A stretch of 64,000 nucleotides of DNA from a virus. A program made the translations under genes and the position numbers. The stretch lies in IMG/VR virus record IMGVR_UViG_3300032156_000001, positions 124,001 through 188,000 of that record; one strand, 5' to 3'. The stretch's first letter is position 1, and each line of letters starts with the position of its first letter. The notes under the pieces are model-generated. The model was given only the letters and a program-made list of their open reading frames with translations. It did not search any database and was not told the origin of the DNA. This document shows, in pieces, positions 4,346-41,104 of the stretch.

Positions 4346-6190
4346 ATGCTCACGACGGTCGGACAGCTTCTGGTCAACGAGGAGCTCCCCCCGGGGCTGC
4401 GCGACCATTCGCGCGTCCTCGACCAGGCCGGCGTGGCCAAGCTGTTCGGCGAGATAGAGAAGGCCGACAAGGGCAAGTTCGCCGACATCAACAGGCGGCT
4501 GCACGACATCGGCCAGCTGGTGTCCACCAGGCAGGGCCGCGAGACGAGCCTGTCGCTGGACGCCCTGCGCCCTTCCAAGGGCGTCGCCGACGAGCGCGCC
4601 AAGCTGGACCGCGAGGTGAAACTGATCCTGGCCGGCCCGGGCGACACGGCGGAGAAGCACAGGAAGATCGTCGAGGCCATCGCCGGCAAGGCCGACAGGA
4701 TCACCGAGCTGAACTACCAGGAAGGCCTGAAGGACCGCAACCCGTTCGCGCTGCAAATCCTGTCGGGCAGCCGCGGCAACAAGGTACAGTTCAGGACGCT
4801 GCGCGCGGGCGACCTGTTGGTAACCGATCACAGGGATGAGCCCGTGCCGGTGCCAATGCTGTCGTCCTACGCTGAGGGGCTCGACCCGGTGCAGTATTGG
4901 GCGGGAGCGTATGGCGCCCGCCGAAGCGAGATTTTGAAAAAGTTCTCCACCCCGAAGGCCGGCTACCTCGGCAAGCAGCTCGCCATGGCGGCGCACAGGC
5001 TCGTCGTGACGGAGAAGGACTGCGGCACTTCCACCGGCGTGCCGGCGACGGCCGACGATCCCGACAACGAGGGTGCCGTCCTGGCAACCGACGCGGCCGG
5101 CATCCGGGCCGGGACGGTGCTGACGCCGGACATCATGCGGAAGCTGGGGGACAAGAAGATCCTCGTCAGGTCGGCGCTGACCTGCCAGGCGGAGCGCGGC
5201 CTGTGCGGCAAGTGCGCTGGCGTACGCGAGACAGGCGCGCTGCCGTCGATCGGCTCGCATATCGGCATCGCGGCGGCGCACGCGCTTTCAGAGCCGTTGT
5301 CACAGGGGTCTCTGGGCGCGAAACATTTGGGCGGGACCGTCTCCTCCGGCCAGAGATCGAAGGACGACGCGCTCGACGTGGTCAACAGGCTGGTCCAAGT
5401 GCCGGAGGCGTTCCCCGGCGCGGCGGCGGTCGCTACCAACGACGGCCGCGTGGAGCGCGTCGAGGATGCGCCGCAGGGCGGCACGACGGTCGTCATAGGC
5501 GGCAAGGAGCACTGGGCGGCGCCGGGCCAGAAGATCATGGTGAAGAAGAACGACGAAGTCGAAGCTGGCGACGTCATCAGCGACGGCATGCCTAATCCCG
5601 CCGACATCGTGAAGCACAAGGGCATCGGCGAGGGCAGGCGCTACTTCACGGACCTGTTCAGGAAGACGCTGGCGCAGCACGGATTCAAGCAGAACAGGCG
5701 GAACGTGGAGCTGGTGGCCCGCGGCCTGATCAACCACGTGCGCATCACGGGGCTGCACGGGCCGAACCACACCGTCATGGACGACCTGGTGGAGTTCGAC
5801 CCGCTCATGCGCGGCTACGAGCCCAGGGAGGGCAGCGTTTCCGTCACGCCGAAGGAAGCCAGGGGTTTCTTTCTGGAAAGGCCCGTGCTACATTACTCGG
5901 TGGGCACGCGGATCACGCCGCGGATGGCGGCGGAGCTGCACGGGAACGGCGTCAAGAGCGTCACGGCGCACCGTGAGCCGCCGCCGTTCGAGCCGGAGAT
6001 GGTGCGGGCGGTCGAAACGATGGCGCACGCGGACGACTGGATGCTGCGGCTGGGAGGCCTGTACGGCATCCAGCGCAGCTTCTTGAAGTCCGTCCACCGC
6101 GGCGGCACCTCCGATCCGACGGGGACGTCCTACATCCCGGCGCTGGCGGAGGGCACCGGCCTGCGGGGGTTGGAAGACGAGGAGGATTAG
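4346..6190 (+). CDS. rpoC: RNA polymerase beta-prime subunit, C-terminal half (bridge helix, zinc site, trigger loop)
   Basis: 614 aa. The N-terminus (TTVGQLLVNEELPPGL) aligns with the TTVGRAILWxIVPxGLP region of bacterial RpoC, exactly where the upstream fragment at 139 leaves off. Residues 182-216 match the bridge helix (YGARRSEILKKF, GYLGKQLAMAA). The second zinc site is complete: C226 in VVTEKDCGTSTG, and C280, C287, C290 in CQAERGLCGKC. Residues 303-331 match the trigger-helix region (IGIAAAHALSEPLSQ, HLGG). Compared with E. coli (numbers from memory), the trigger-loop His936 is kept but Arg933 is replaced by Gly. Later, EAGDVISDGMPNPADIV matches the ERGDVISDGPEAPHDIL segment. It probably assembles with the N-terminal half and phage beta-like subunits. 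No strong ribosome site precedes ATG 4346. Confidence 0.93.
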   Translation: MLTTVGQLLVNEELPPGLRDHSRVLDQAGVAKLFGEIEKADKGKFADINRRLHDIGQLVSTRQGRETSLSLDALRPSKGVADERAKLDREVKLILAGPGDTAEKHRKIVEAIAGKADRITELNYQEGLKDRNPFALQILSGSRGNKVQFRTLRAGDLLVTDHRDEPVPVPMLSSYAEGLDPVQYWAGAYGARRSEILKKFSTPKAGYLGKQLAMAAHRLVVTEKDCGTSTGVPATADDPDNEGAVLATDAAGIRAGTVLTPDIMRKLGDKKILVRSALTCQAERGLCGKCAGVRETGALPSIGSHIGIAAAHALSEPLSQGSLGAKHLGGTVSSGQRSKDDALDVVNRLVQVPEAFPGAAAVATNDGRVERVEDAPQGGTTVVIGGKEHWAAPGQKIMVKKNDEVEAGDVISDGMPNPADIVKHKGIGEGRRYFTDLFRKTLAQHGFKQNRRNVELVARGLINHVRITGLHGPNHTVMDDLVEFDPLMRGYEPREGSVSVTPKEARGFFLERPVLHYSVGTRITPRMAAELHGNGVKSVTAHREPPPFEPEMVRAVETMAHADDWMLRLGGLYGIQRSFLKSVHRGGTSDPTGTSYIPALAEGTGLRGLEDEED

Positions 6191-17099: not shown

Positions 17100-17732
17100 A
17101 TGACGACTCCTGCACAGATGTTCGACCACGAGCTGAACCCGGTCAAGGGTTGGCCCGGGCCGGCTGCGCTGGACAAGACGAAGGCGATCGGGCCGGGCGA
17201 GTCGATCCAGCGCGGGCGGGTCATGTCCATCGGCCCGAACGACACGCTCATCCTGGGCGCGTACTTCAACGCGATGCCCATCTTCGCGTTCCCGAGCACC
17301 GACGACTTCGACGTCGCGAGCGACGTCGGCAACTTCTCTGGCGGGCATGGCATGGGCCTGGTGGCCACCGGGCACTTCGAGGTGGAAACCACCGAGTTCA
17401 TGACCAGCTTCGAGGAGCTCAGGTTCACCTACCCGCCGAACACGCCAGTGGCGCCGTGGCTCTACTCGGCGAACGACGTCGGGAAGATCTTCCCGACCGG
17501 CTTCACGCTGTTCGACCGGATCTTCGACCAGATCTGCGGGATCGTCTCCGACGCGAGCCCGCTCACCAACGAGTTCCAGAAGCAGGTGGTCAGGTTCTGG
17601 ACCACCTACATCCCGTACATCGACATCGGGGAATGGAAGAGCAAGGACAAGCTGCTGCCCCCCGGCAAGCGCTCGGAAGCGGAAGTGAGGAAGTTGGCGG
17701 CCGCATGGCGGGCGCGGGGAAAGGCGAAGTAG
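17100..17732 (+). CDS. capsid decoration/stabilisation-like protein B (paralog of A)
   Basis: 210 aa. Paralogous to the gene at 16534 over its whole length, including the leader before ATG (both have GGTAAGGAGA or AAGTAAGGAGA followed by a purine-rich gap). It differs by an insertion in the middle (FEELRFTYPPNTPVAPWLYS) and by an extra basic C-terminal tail (KRSEAEVRKLAAAWRARGKAK) that the first copy lacks. The longer tail could contact DNA or the capsid interior. It follows protein A after 53 bases. Confidence 0.65.
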   Translation: MTTPAQMFDHELNPVKGWPGPAALDKTKAIGPGESIQRGRVMSIGPNDTLILGAYFNAMPIFAFPSTDDFDVASDVGNFSGGHGMGLVATGHFEVETTEFMTSFEELRFTYPPNTPVAPWLYSANDVGKIFPTGFTLFDRIFDQICGIVSDASPLTNEFQKQVVRFWTTYIPYIDIGEWKSKDKLLPPGKRSEAEVRKLAAAWRARGKAK

Positions 17733-17801
17733 GAAACTGGCGCCGGTCCAGCCACCAAGGGCGGCCCGGCTTGGGAAGGCTTGGAAGAGAGGGTCACTGA
17801 G

Positions 17802-18731
17802 ATGGAACCGACCACGGAACTGCTGAATCGGGCCGTCATAGACCGGCTCACCTCGGACGATCCCGGGATGGTGAAGGAAGCCGTCACGGCGATCAACGAG
17901 TACACGCGGGTGAAGCTGCGCGAAGACGGCTTCCTGAGGCGGGTGCTCCCGCCCCTGACGATCACGGAGTTCGACCGGCAGGTCGACACCGACAAGCCGG
18001 TCAAGGTCGTGGACAAGGAACCGGACTCCCCGGCCGCGATCAGCGTGCCGTTCGGCTCCTCGCCCATGAACCGGTACATCCGCGGGCCCCGCTACCGCGT
18101 GATGTTCGACCGGATCCTCACGCCGAAGTTCACCAAGGACGTCGTCGAGCTGATGACCTGGCACATGGACATCCGCCAGATCCTCAGCGACAACGCCATC
18201 AAGGACATGATGGCCGAGGAGGACAACAAGTTCCTCCTGGCGGTCAACACCGTCCTGGTGGCCCCCGGCAGCGTCCTGCCCGACACGGGCATCGCGCAGT
18301 GGGTCACGCTCAGCGGCGGAGTGACCAGGGACACGCTGGCTGCGGCCATGCAGGTCCTCCCGGGCAGCTTCCAGCGCTTGGTCGCGGCCACGGTGCTGGT
18401 CAACCAGATCACCATCTGGGAGTTCGTGAAGTGGGGCCGCGACGAGGTCGGCGGCGACGACGCGCAGGCCACGCTGCGCCAGGGCTTCCAGGAACGCGAG
18501 CTCATGGGGGTCCGCTTCATCGTCACGATCAAGTGGGACCTGGTCCCGACGAACACGATCTTCCTGTTCGCCGAGCCGAAGTTCCTCGGCAAGCTGTACA
18601 TGATCGAGGACGTCACGATGTACGTGAACAAGCGGGCGTTCATGCTCGAGTTCTTCGCGTACGAGTGCCTCGGCGGGGCGATCGGGAACGTGGCCGCGGT
18701 CGGCCGCGTGGACTTCACGACCGAGACGTAG
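17802..18731 (+). CDS. major capsid protein, predicted
   Basis: 309 aa. ATG 17802 is preferred over an in-frame TTG 21 bases upstream because AGAGAGGG lies 9 bases before it. Order of elements: helical N-arm (residues 1-45), strand-rich E-loop-like region (RRVLPPLTITEFDRQV), long central helix (FTKDVVELMTWHMDIRQIL), and a beta-rich P/A-domain-like end (GVRFIVTIKWDLVPTNTIFLF and KLYMIEDVTMYV). Size, order of strands and position after protease, scaffold and decoration genes fit an HK97-fold capsid protein of the long-helix type seen in myoviruses. A strong GC hairpin follows the stop codon. Confidence 0.75.
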   Translation: MEPTTELLNRAVIDRLTSDDPGMVKEAVTAINEYTRVKLREDGFLRRVLPPLTITEFDRQVDTDKPVKVVDKEPDSPAAISVPFGSSPMNRYIRGPRYRVMFDRILTPKFTKDVVELMTWHMDIRQILSDNAIKDMMAEEDNKFLLAVNTVLVAPGSVLPDTGIAQWVTLSGGVTRDTLAAAMQVLPGSFQRLVAATVLVNQITIWEFVKWGRDEVGGDDAQATLRQGFQERELMGVRFIVTIKWDLVPTNTIFLFAEPKFLGKLYMIEDVTMYVNKRAFMLEFFAYECLGGAIGNVAAVGRVDFTTET

Positions 18732-31666: not shown

Positions 31667-32296
31667 ATGGCACAGGGATTCACGCAGCCGGCGGCGGCGC
31701 CGCCGAAGATCGGGCCGACTTTGGCGCCCGCGCAGGTCGATCCTGAGAAGAGGCGGGAGATCGAGGAGCTCGACGCGGTGGCGAAGGAGCTGAAGCAGCC
31801 CATCGAGGGCATCGGCGACGCGCCCTCGCTGCCGCCGCAGGGGGGAACGGCGTATTCGGAGGAGGACAAGAAGTCCTTCGTGCGCGCCATCCTGGGCAGC
31901 CAGCCGTTCGCGAAGCCGTACACCCTGTTCGGCGGCATCAGGGTGACGTTCGTGGACGCGCCGGCGGAGGCGTACGGGATGCTGCCGACCGTCATTAAAG
32001 CCGACATGACCGCCGGGCTCGCGCCGAAGCTGGGGCAGGACGACGACGCGAACGAACTGGTCGCGCGCTACCTGGCGGCGCTGACCGTGCGCGACATCCT
32101 CGGCCCCAACGCCAAGCCGATCAAGGCGTTCAAGGAGCCCGACCTGACGAAGCTGAACGAGCGCGTCAAGGAGCTGCTGGAGCTGCCGCGCCCGCTGTTC
32201 CTGGCCGTCGTGAACGCGGCGATGGACTTCGACTCGCTCATAAACGGACTGGTCGAGCGGGCGGCCGTCGCAAATTTCTGGCAGACCGGTGGGTAG
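31667..32296 (+). CDS. tail assembly chaperone (zero-frame product)
   Basis: 209 aa. Composition and placement fit the gpG-like chaperone of tailed phages: acidic/helical, Pro-rich N-terminus, middle domain (KPYTLFGGIRVTFVDAPAEA), C-terminal helices (LNERVKELLELPRPLFLAVV). It ends at TAG 32294-32296, 16 bases after an AAATTTC slippery site read in phase as A-AAT-TTC, and the next reading frame (-1) stays open for 174 codons with no early start codon. The product binds the tape-measure protein during tail assembly. The leader at 31643 repeats the tube gene leader. Confidence 0.75.
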   Translation: MAQGFTQPAAAPPKIGPTLAPAQVDPEKRREIEELDAVAKELKQPIEGIGDAPSLPPQGGTAYSEEDKKSFVRAILGSQPFAKPYTLFGGIRVTFVDAPAEAYGMLPTVIKADMTAGLAPKLGQDDDANELVARYLAALTVRDILGPNAKPIKAFKEPDLTKLNERVKELLELPRPLFLAVVNAAMDFDSLINGLVERAAVANFWQTGG

Positions 32297-32802
32297 GCCT
32301 GGCGGTCGAGGCGGCCGCCAACGGCCGGCTTGATTTCTCCGCCGCCCGCCGGGACGATTGGGGTTGGGAGCTGAAGGAAGCGCTGGTCCTCGAGCGCGTA
32401 GACGCGGAGATATCGGCGCGCCTGGCCGAGGCGACGCACAGGTGGTACTGCGCGGCCGCGCAGCTGACGGGCTGGGATCCCGGCGAGGCGCAGTACGACC
32501 AGTACGCCGAACGCGCGGGGCAGACCTATCTCCGCCTGGGCCGCATCCTGGCCCCGTGGCGGGGCTGGCTCGGCAAGCGCGGCGGCCTGGCGGAACAGTG
32601 GCGTCTGTTCAAGGAGGCCGAGAAGGACCCGAAATATGCGGCCTGGCTGCGCGAGGAGCGCGCGCGGCTGCGGGAACTGGCCGCCGAGGCGGAAGCGAAC
32701 AGGAAGAGCGAGGCGGAGTTCGTGAAGCGGCGGGCGGAGTGGCTGCTGAAGCGGGCTGAGCGAGACCGGGATAGGAGACGGCGGCATGGCGTCGGGTCCT
32801 GA
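31667..32802 (+). CDS. tail assembly chaperone frameshift fusion (GT-like)
   Basis: A -1 shift at 32272-32278 would add 174 residues after residue 204, giving about 378 aa. The extension continues without a stop from 32278 to TGA 32800-32802 and is clearly protein-like: ADRWVGLAVEAAANGRLDFS, a helical middle (YDQYAERAGQTYLRLGRILA), and a charged Arg/Glu/Lys-rich helical end (LRELAAEAEANRKSEAEFVK). The extension frame contains no ATG and its only GTG is far downstream, so it cannot be made independently; fusion by frameshifting explains it. The last bases overlap the next gene (ATG 32786). This mirrors lambda G/GT and the frameshifted chaperones of many myoviruses. Confidence 0.75.
32272..32278 (+). 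promoter_or_regulatory. programmed -1 ribosomal frameshift slippery heptamer
   Basis: AAATTTC in phase as A-AAT-TTC matches X-XXY-YYZ. The zero-frame stop is 16 bases on. A short stem GACCG/CGGTC (32284-32288 with 32303-32307) begins 5 bases downstream and a CGGCCG inverted pair lies at 32312-32327; either might stimulate slipping, but both are weak. Confidence 0.75.
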
Positions 32803-36915: not shown

Positions 36916-37617
36916 ATGGAGCAGGCTTACGAGAAGTGGCGGAAGGCCCCGACGCAGGAGAACATGGCCGCGCTGCTGGACGCGGCCGACCCCGTCGTCG
37001 ATTCGGCGCTGTCCGCGTACGCGCGCGGGGACAAGGCGCTCAAGTCGCGCGCCAGGATCCTCGCCGCCGGCGCGTTCAAGACCTACGACCCGCAGAAGGG
37101 CACCAAGCTGCGGACCCACGTCATGACGCAGCTGCAGCCCCTGTCGCGGGCGCACAGGGAGCGGACGGCGGTCGTCAGGACGCCGGAGCGGGTGGCTGCC
37201 GACTCGTACCGGCTGAGCCAGGCGCAGCAGGAGTTCGCGGACAGGCACGGCCGGGAGCCCAGCACCGCCGAGCTGGCCGACGCCTCCAACCTGTCGCTGA
37301 AGCGGATAGCGCACGTGCGCGGCTTCAAGGGCCCGCTGGCCGAGTCGTCGCTGACCGAGATGGAGGAGGACTCGCCGGCCACGTTCTACCCCGGCGTCCA
37401 CAAGGAGGACCCGAGGAAGATCTGGCAGGAGTACGTCTACCACGACCTGGACCCGATCAACCAACAGATCCTGGAACGGAAGGCGGGCATGCATGGCAAG
37501 CCGGCGCTGTCGAACAACGAGATCGCGGCCAAGCTGGGCGTGACGCCAGGCGCAGTGTCGCAGCGCAGCGCGGCCATAGCGGCCAAGCTGGCACAGGGCG
37601 AGGGCGTGGAGCTATAG
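36916..37617 (+). CDS. phage sigma factor (sigma70 family)
   Basis: 233 aa. Residues about 24-83 correspond to a reduced region 2 (ARILAAGAFKTYDPQKGTKL, VMTQLQPLSRAHRER), which contains the YDPQKGTKLRT equivalent of the 'FDPxRGxKFST' motif. Residues 87-135 match region 3 (VRTPERVAADSYRLSQAQQE, HGREPSTAELADASNLSLKR). Residues 165-228 match region 4 with the HTH (ALSNNEIAAKLGVTPGAVSQ). There is no long region 1. Such a factor could direct host or phage polymerase to phage promoters. It sits inside the baseplate gene cluster, with its own promoter (36816) and palindrome (36883-36904) upstream. Confidence 0.85.
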   Translation: MEQAYEKWRKAPTQENMAALLDAADPVVDSALSAYARGDKALKSRARILAAGAFKTYDPQKGTKLRTHVMTQLQPLSRAHRERTAVVRTPERVAADSYRLSQAQQEFADRHGREPSTAELADASNLSLKRIAHVRGFKGPLAESSLTEMEEDSPATFYPGVHKEDPRKIWQEYVYHDLDPINQQILERKAGMHGKPALSNNEIAAKLGVTPGAVSQRSAAIAAKLAQGEGVEL

Positions 37618-39457: not shown

Positions 39458-41104
39458 ATGTCCACGGAACTGAATCCGGCGGATCTCGACCAGGAGGCCG
39501 TCGCGCAGGCGGAGGAGACGCTTGCGTCCTGGCTGCAGACCGAGTACCCCTCCATGGACCTCACGCAGGGGCGCGTCCTGCGCGACCTCCTGATACGCCC
39601 GGCCGCCATCTTCCACGTCATGAACCAGACGGACGTCAACAGGCTGCGCCAGTCGATGTCGCTGCTGGCGATCGAGCAGGACCCGACGCTGGCCGACGAC
39701 ACTATCGTCGACGGCATCATGTCGAACTACGGCATCGCCCGCGACCCTGGCTCGAAGGCCGCCGGGCAGGCCGTGATAGTGATACCCAACCTTCTCACCA
39801 CGTACGTCGCGCCGGGGACGGTGTTCGCGTACGGCTCCCTCAACTTCGTGACGGCGGGCCCGTTCGTCGGCGTCACGACGGTGGACGCGGTGATCGACCC
39901 GGCCGTGCAGCGGCTCATCACGCTGCGCAGGGACCGGACGTACATGTTCGTCGTGGACGTCGTGGCGCAGGGGACGGGCTCGGAATACTGGGTGCGCAAG
40001 GACACCGCCTTCGACTCCGTGTCGCCGACGCCGACGGGCCTTGTCACCGCGTACGCCTACGCCGACTTCTCCGCCGGCACCGACGCGCAGACGAACGAGG
40101 ACCTGGTCAACGAGGTCAAGAACGGCGTGGCCGCCAAGGTGTTCAGCGGCAGGGCGCAGATAGAGGCGCTGCTGCTGAAGACCCTGCCGGCGATAGCGGC
40201 GATCAGCATCATAGGGTTCGGCGACGCGGAGATGGTCCGCGACAGGCACAACATCTTCGCCATCAGCACCGGCGGCAAAGCTGACCTGTACGTGCGGACC
40301 CAGGCCGTGCCGCAGACGGTGCGGCTGGTCAAGACGGCCGTGCTGGTGGACCTGCCGACGAAGACGTGGCAAGTGACACTGGCCCGCGACGATGCGCCGG
40401 GCTTCTACGACATCGACTCGATCCTGCCCACGGACGCCCCCGAGGGCACCGGCAGCCTGGAGATCGGCTCCGAGACGCGCGGGCTGGACCTGTCGGCGCC
40501 GAACGATGAGTTCGTGCCTGACATAGACAGCCTGACCGAGGGCGGGTTCTCCCGCTACCAGACCGACGTCGTCAGGTTCGTCGATCCCGACACGGACGGC
40601 AGCGTGGCGGCGAAGGATTACGCCGTCTACGTGCGGTACATGCCGAACCTGGTGGCGCTGCAGGACCTGGCGGTCAGCCGCGACAACCGGAACCCGCAGG
40701 CCGACTACCTGGTCCGCGCGCCGGTCCCGGGGTTCTGCACCATGAACATCACGGTGAGGCACCTGCCGTCGGTGGAGGCCCCCGACGGGGACGACATCAA
40801 GCTGGCCGTGGCCGACAGGGTCAACAGGCTGGGCTTCGGGCTCGGCAAGGTGTCGGCGTCGGTGGTCTTCGACGCCATCTACGACATCATCGGGCATGGG
40901 CCGTCCGTGATGGCCGTCTCGCCGCTGGACATGTTCTGCCGGATCGTGAAGCCGGCGGGCGGCGTGATCGACCTCCGGTCGGCGAACGAGCTGGTCGCGC
41001 CGTTCCTGCCGGCGGAGGGCGTGACCTCGAGGACGGTGGCGTTCTACCTGGACCCCGACGACGTGGACGTCGTCGTGGAGCAGGTCGACTCGCTGCCGGT
41101 GTGA
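39458..41104 (+). CDS. baseplate J / gp6-like wedge protein
   Basis: 548 aa. The N-terminal helix-rich part (ADLDQEAVAQAEETLASWLQ, MDLTQGRVLRDLLIRPAAIF) and the core strands (VIVIPNLLTTYVAPGTVFAY) are typical of Baseplate_J proteins. Many internal repeats of beta-hairpins follow, and the end (PDGDDIKLAVADRVNRLGFG, VVFDAIYDIIGHGPSVMAVS) resembles the C-terminal dimerisation domain of gpJ/gp6. It forms the ring of wedges around the hub. GGAGCACGC precedes ATG 39458. Confidence 0.75.
   Translation: MSTELNPADLDQEAVAQAEETLASWLQTEYPSMDLTQGRVLRDLLIRPAAIFHVMNQTDVNRLRQSMSLLAIEQDPTLADDTIVDGIMSNYGIARDPGSKAAGQAVIVIPNLLTTYVAPGTVFAYGSLNFVTAGPFVGVTTVDAVIDPAVQRLITLRRDRTYMFVVDVVAQGTGSEYWVRKDTAFDSVSPTPTGLVTAYAYADFSAGTDAQTNEDLVNEVKNGVAAKVFSGRAQIEALLLKTLPAIAAISIIGFGDAEMVRDRHNIFAISTGGKADLYVRTQAVPQTVRLVKTAVLVDLPTKTWQVTLARDDAPGFYDIDSILPTDAPEGTGSLEIGSETRGLDLSAPNDEFVPDIDSLTEGGFSRYQTDVVRFVDPDTDGSVAAKDYAVYVRYMPNLVALQDLAVSRDNRNPQADYLVRAPVPGFCTMNITVRHLPSVEAPDGDDIKLAVADRVNRLGFGLGKVSASVVFDAIYDIIGHGPSVMAVSPLDMFCRIVKPAGGVIDLRSANELVAPFLPAEGVTSRTVAFYLDPDDVDVVVEQVDSLPV

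Follow-up and report, generated by a model that had tools for sequence, protein, structure and literature searches.

Predicted programmed -1 frameshifting at an A_AAT_TTC heptamer in a G/G-T-type tail assembly chaperone gene of large RNA-polymerase-carrying phages

The window, by which we mean the whole 64,000-base stretch of DNA that was analysed, spans bases 124001-188000 of a virus record 188,118 bases long, has a GC content of 68%, and carries a tail gene cluster as well as genes for a phage RNA polymerase subunit, a sigma factor and a baseplate-J-like protein (Table 1). Within the tail cluster lies a reading frame predicted to encode a G-type tail assembly chaperone, which contains a slippery heptamer close to its end and is followed by an open -1 frame, the putative T-type extension. 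The original prediction had placed this gene between a spike gene and a tape-measure candidate. Its position is real, the chaperone gene being followed directly by the one in the tape-measure place, as in other G/G-T clusters, but the supposed spike gene has no profile match, as neither PHROG nor Pfam assigned it to a family, and the tape-measure candidate encodes only 397 aa. The 935-aa gene further upstream, which contains a long serine run, was likewise assigned to no PHROG or Pfam family.

Table 1. Coordinates in the window of the chaperone gene, its predicted frameshift signal and the surrounding genes.
Feature	Coordinates	Strand	Basis or remark
Phage RNA polymerase subunit gene	4346-6190		within window
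Conserved tail-cluster gene, 935 aa	25656-28463	+	upstream of chaperone; putative sheath, from position; used to find the subclade
Conserved gene, 149 aa	28525-28974	+	upstream of chaperone; putative tube, from position
Gene of 869 aa	29033-31642	+	adjoins chaperone on its upstream side; "spike" of the original prediction
Zero-frame ORF, predicted G-type tail assembly chaperone, 209 aa	31667-32296	+	reading frame, homology, predicted fold
Slippery heptamer A_AAT_TTC	32272-32278	+	phase; position conserved in relatives
-1 frame, putative T-type extension, 175 codons, no usable start	32275-32802	+	open frame, codon use, homologues
Predicted stem-loop, candidate stimulator	32286-32352	+	starts 7 nt after heptamer; spans zero-frame stop
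Zero-frame stop TAG	32294-32296	+	sequence
Gene in tape-measure position, 397 aa	32786-33979	+	overlaps end of -1 frame by 17 nt
Sigma factor gene	36916-37617		within window
Baseplate-J-like gene	39458-41104		within window

The zero frame ends in the codons GCA AAT TTC TGG CAG ACC GGT GGG TAG, in which A_AAT_TTC has the X_XXY_YYZ phase and is separated from the stop by 15 nt; this confirms the in-phase site that had been proposed shortly before the stop, a heptamer of the AAATTTC kind and not the GGGAAAG of phage lambda. It is the sole in-frame XXXYYYZ motif within the overlap of the zero and -1 frames, AAATTT occurs only once in the 64 kb when both strands are counted, and among the 14,134 codons of likely genes there are 9 in-frame XXX(AAA/TTT)N motifs. 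Asn is encoded at the site by AAT, a rare codon here (7 of 125 Asn codons in the genes sampled).

Entered at the TTT at 32275, the -1 frame extends over 175 codons to a stop at 32800-32802, and a fusion made through the heptamer would comprise 204 + 174 = 378 aa, in agreement with the 174 open codons and the product of roughly 378 aa that were originally predicted. The absence of an ATG and of any early GTG or TTG was also borne out: the first such codon is a GTG at codon 149, and the 92 open -1-frame codons upstream of the site contain none of the three. Openness as stand-alone evidence was rejected, since it is common in this genome, where 15 of 36 genes in the window have a -1 frame that stays open for more than 60 codons beyond their own stop. 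The frame stands out instead by its codon use, by its homologues and by having AAT as the Asn codon of the site. Past the zero-frame stop its codon use scores +0.33 bits per codon, the other five frames being negative, and its GC3 is 0.88; together with its conservation in relatives, this coding-type codon use upholds the earlier description of the frame as protein-like.

The predicted stem-loop downstream of the heptamer is a candidate stimulator whose distance from the site falls within the 5-9 nt at which RNA structure is sought for X_XXY_YYZ sites. The minimum free energy for bases 32284-32350 is -41.3 kcal/mol (z -3.56; 0 of 200 shuffles as stable), and the fold of the 75 nt after the site ranks in the top 0.07% of 1,385 local windows, or 0.3% with GC correction. 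Among the relatives presented below, the downstream fold is also extreme in L040, L041, L042, L003, L010, L011 and others; it is not unusual in L037, L039, L045, L047 and L048, and the stem-loop is therefore not a fixed part of the signal. Three of these (L039, L045 and L047) are subclade relatives that possess the heptamer and yet lack an unusual downstream fold. Covariation support for the stem-loop is thin, and no Rfam match was found near the shift site.

Single-protein scans of viral and genome contigs with G and T gave no matches, nor did a tblastn search of phages with the G-T fusion, and relatives were reached via the RNA polymerase subunit, the sigma factor and the 935-aa gene. The polymerase search retrieved a contig 45% identical in that protein, as well as Salmonella phage Arash and Vibrio phages D69, D148 and D181. 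Alignment of the 935-aa gene yielded 15 loci, and the 11 distinct relatives among them that include the junction constitute the subclade set of the window. The -1 frame is kept open in all 11, and the encoded protein begins with FLxxD[RQ]. At the shift site, L039 is identical to the window (A_AAT_TTC TGG, the stop again following at 15 nt), A_AAT_TTT is found in L045 and L047, L034, L036 and L048 have G_GAT_TTT, L037 has G_ACT_TTT, and L040, L041, L042 and L046 have G_TCT_TTC. The U_UUY half is thus kept throughout the subclade and the AAA half only in some members: A_AAT_TTY is found in 3 of the 11, and the U_UUY half alone in 8. A comparison of the heptamer and of the -1 frame in related phages had been proposed as a check on the prediction, with loss of either in close relatives counting against it. 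The outcome is divided: the frame and a shift-prone Phe codon persist in every subclade relative, but the first half of the heptamer is missing from 8 of the 11. Five of them (L040, L041, L042, L046 and L048) have a TGATG, in which an ATG overlaps the zero-frame stop. The -1 frame of L048 is open for 213 codons upstream of the shift site. Most subclade G proteins (L034-L047) contain a zinc-finger-like CPHCGWD motif, which is missing from the G of the window.

The second set, referred to here as the Arash type, is comprised of Salmonella phage Arash, Vibrio phages D69, D148 and D181, and metagenomic contigs. A_AAT_TTN is present in the 14 distinct Arash-type relatives in which the site was found, although these are not 14 independent cases, some being close to one another (L004 and L012). 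In 12 of them A_AAT_TT[C/T] is followed at once by TAA, and the other two (L018 and L024) have A_AAT_TTA with the stop 27-33 nt on. Several of these sites were spotted by a heptamer scan; those located by protein homology, through alignment of G (L010-L012) or homology of T (L028, L032 and L033), all read A_AAT_TT[CT]_TAA. Except in L010, the -1 peptide FLxxPWA is conserved between the zero-frame stop and the first start codon, and the first ATG, GTG or TTG lies at codon 7 or later, while L010 has a GTG at codon 5 of this stretch. Differences in the stop-to-start stretch are distributed over codon positions 1, 2 and 3 as 204, 151 and 280, and are most numerous at the third position. In GenBank, the T of Arash is a separate gene (gp3) that starts at an ATG ten codons after the Phe codon; for Arash and the Vibrio phages (L004, 1622-2538; L003, 1536-2395), T is annotated as a separate hypothetical gene whose start appears to lie 8-10 codons too late. 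L027 has A_AAA_AAC, and a comparable site was not established in L014, L016, L017, L025 or L026. The first of these, L014 (4631-6541), which is related through its sigma factor, contains a G-like ORF without a -1 T frame of this kind.

In the Arash-type relatives examined, and in all but one of the 11 subclade relatives, the T frame is followed directly by a gene of about 950 to more than 1,550 aa, whose position and length suggest a tape-measure role. Compared with these, the 397-aa gene of the window is unusually short, which may mean either that the tail is very short or that the tape measure sits elsewhere. L048 has the T frame without an identified long tape-measure gene behind it, the sole ORF of more than 150 aa in that place (17577-18119) encoding 180 aa.

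When scored against profiles built from the 11 relatives with the window left out, G of the window obtained 25.4 bits (the best of about 1,900 shuffles obtained 6.5) and T obtained 32.0 bits (best shuffle 8.9), so that the -1 frame, too, is conserved as protein. Between the subclade and the Arash clade, G gave a weak match (hhalign E 0.00055, probability 30%) and T no detectable homology (hhalign E 0.41). PHROGs and Pfam returned no convincing family for G or T. When an AF2 model of G of the window (mean pLDDT 73) was compared with the PDB, the two highest-ranking of 350,542 chains belonged to the HK97 tail assembly chaperone 2ob9 (weak matches, E 0.12 and 0.14; TM 0.26/0.43), and in BFVD the second-best match of the model was the tail assembly chaperone of Rhodococcus phage Finch, also weak (E 0.0018). 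These matches of the model lend weak support to a chaperone fold for G; a structure search with T gave no matches. The virion proteome of Arash, with 116 proteins, lists Gp004 onward, and Gp002 and Gp003 are absent from it (PMC10585845). These two are the homologues of G and T, and their absence fits the situation in lambda, where neither gpG nor gpGT is found in the mature virion (PMC5009743).

Taken together, the gene is very probably a G/G-T tail assembly chaperone gene with predicted programmed -1 frameshifting at A_AAT_TTC. The recurrence of the site and of the second frame across many distant relatives indicates that the predicted signal is almost certainly real. We infer that most ribosomes would read the zero frame to its stop and produce G, and that in a minority the Asn-tRNA on AAU and the Phe-tRNA on UUC would slip back by one base and re-pair on AAA and UUU, after which translation would continue in the -1 frame to give the G-T fusion. 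Heptamers of the R_RR.U_UU.Y type are among the shift-prone ones in E. coli (PMC4066793), and the stem-loop would probably raise the slip rate. By analogy with lambda, G may coat the tape-measure protein, and the T part may recruit tail-tube subunits.

Several other readings of the two-frame arrangement were weighed against programmed frameshifting. T could be a separate protein, translated without frameshifting by coupling or re-initiation near the zero-frame stop, as might be suspected from the TGATG of the five subclade relatives named above and from the Arash and Vibrio annotations, which begin T at an ATG 8-10 codons in. Against this, the relatives have conserved residues (FL..DR or FLxxPWA) ahead of their first ATG. 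The window has no TGATG-type start near the zero-frame stop, and its -1 frame reaches codon 149 before any ATG, GTG or TTG appears; with no such codon available, the window excludes re-initiation at a normal start, and as a general account of T re-initiation is very unlikely. It is possible that in the TGATG relatives re-initiation operates in addition to frameshifting. An error in sequencing or assembly, or gene decay, might be imagined for a window taken from a metagenomic virus record, but the same layout of two frames recurs in independent contigs and in the named phages Arash and D69/D148/D181, and the chance that the frame change is of this kind is negligible.

A further alternative concerns the bases that take part in slippage. 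The Phe-tRNA might slip by itself on the tetramer U_UUC, with the AAA half contributing little: U_UUY occurs in all subclade relatives and in the Arash-type sites with TTC or TTT, the AAA half is found in only some relatives, and U_UU.C ranks second among shift-prone tetramers in E. coli, given a strong stimulator (PMC4066793). The AAA half is nevertheless present in all 14 Arash-type relatives with the site and in three of the subclade, and we regard slippage by a single tRNA as extremely unlikely. With slippage of both tRNAs on the heptamer as the preferred reading for the window, the differences among relatives can be viewed, tentatively and with more doubt than confidence, as one lineage whose signal is changing from the A_AAU_UUY heptamer to a bare U_UUY, in some cases with a strong stem-loop, and on to TGATG, which perhaps adds re-initiation. 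If so, the group could show a frameshift gene turning into two coupled genes.

A frameshifted tail chaperone is known as a kind and is unannotated in this virus group. Its recognition extends G/G-T frameshifting to RNA-polymerase-carrying phages of about 170-190 kb, which are almost without annotation, amends the gene models of Arash and the Vibrio phages, in which T appears as a separate late-start ORF, and provides, in its heptamer, tetramer and TGATG sites, a natural series on which the determinants of frameshift efficiency can be tested. No paper on AAATTTC frameshifting in phages was found in the open-licence literature, and the frameshift literature searched does not mention an A_AAU_UUY heptamer for phages.

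A two-part chaperone is also a feature of the T4-like phages, for which Vladimirov et al. in 2022 (as cited in PMC12846349) reportedly proposed, in the title of their paper, a mechanism other than frameshifting. In the Vandenendeviridae (Pseudomonas phage Adele), the TAC-N/TAC-NC chaperone has a -1 frame that is conserved across a divergent family and was earlier annotated as separate or intergenic (PMC12846349). By its published description this is likewise a myovirus chaperone, with a U-rich Phe slip motif (GTTTTT) that resembles the U_UUY core reported here, although the slip motif itself differs. The HK97 chaperone 2ob9 is the top, though weak, PDB match of the predicted G, and differs in that the relatives of G carry extra N-terminal regions. 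The closest parallel in organization is the G/GT gene of phage lambda, in which a short and a -1-extended chaperone are encoded directly ahead of the tape-measure gene and the short frame has a slippery heptamer close to its end; the lambda products are absent from the virion, as are the Arash homologues of the present G and T. In contrast to lambda and its GGGAAAG, the present gene has A_AAU_UUC, a candidate stem-loop and a T of 175 codons, and Pfam and PHROGs revealed no sequence homology. Judged by its testable features, it belongs with the lambda-type G/G-T chaperones but uses another heptamer, and its chaperone fold is weakly supported.
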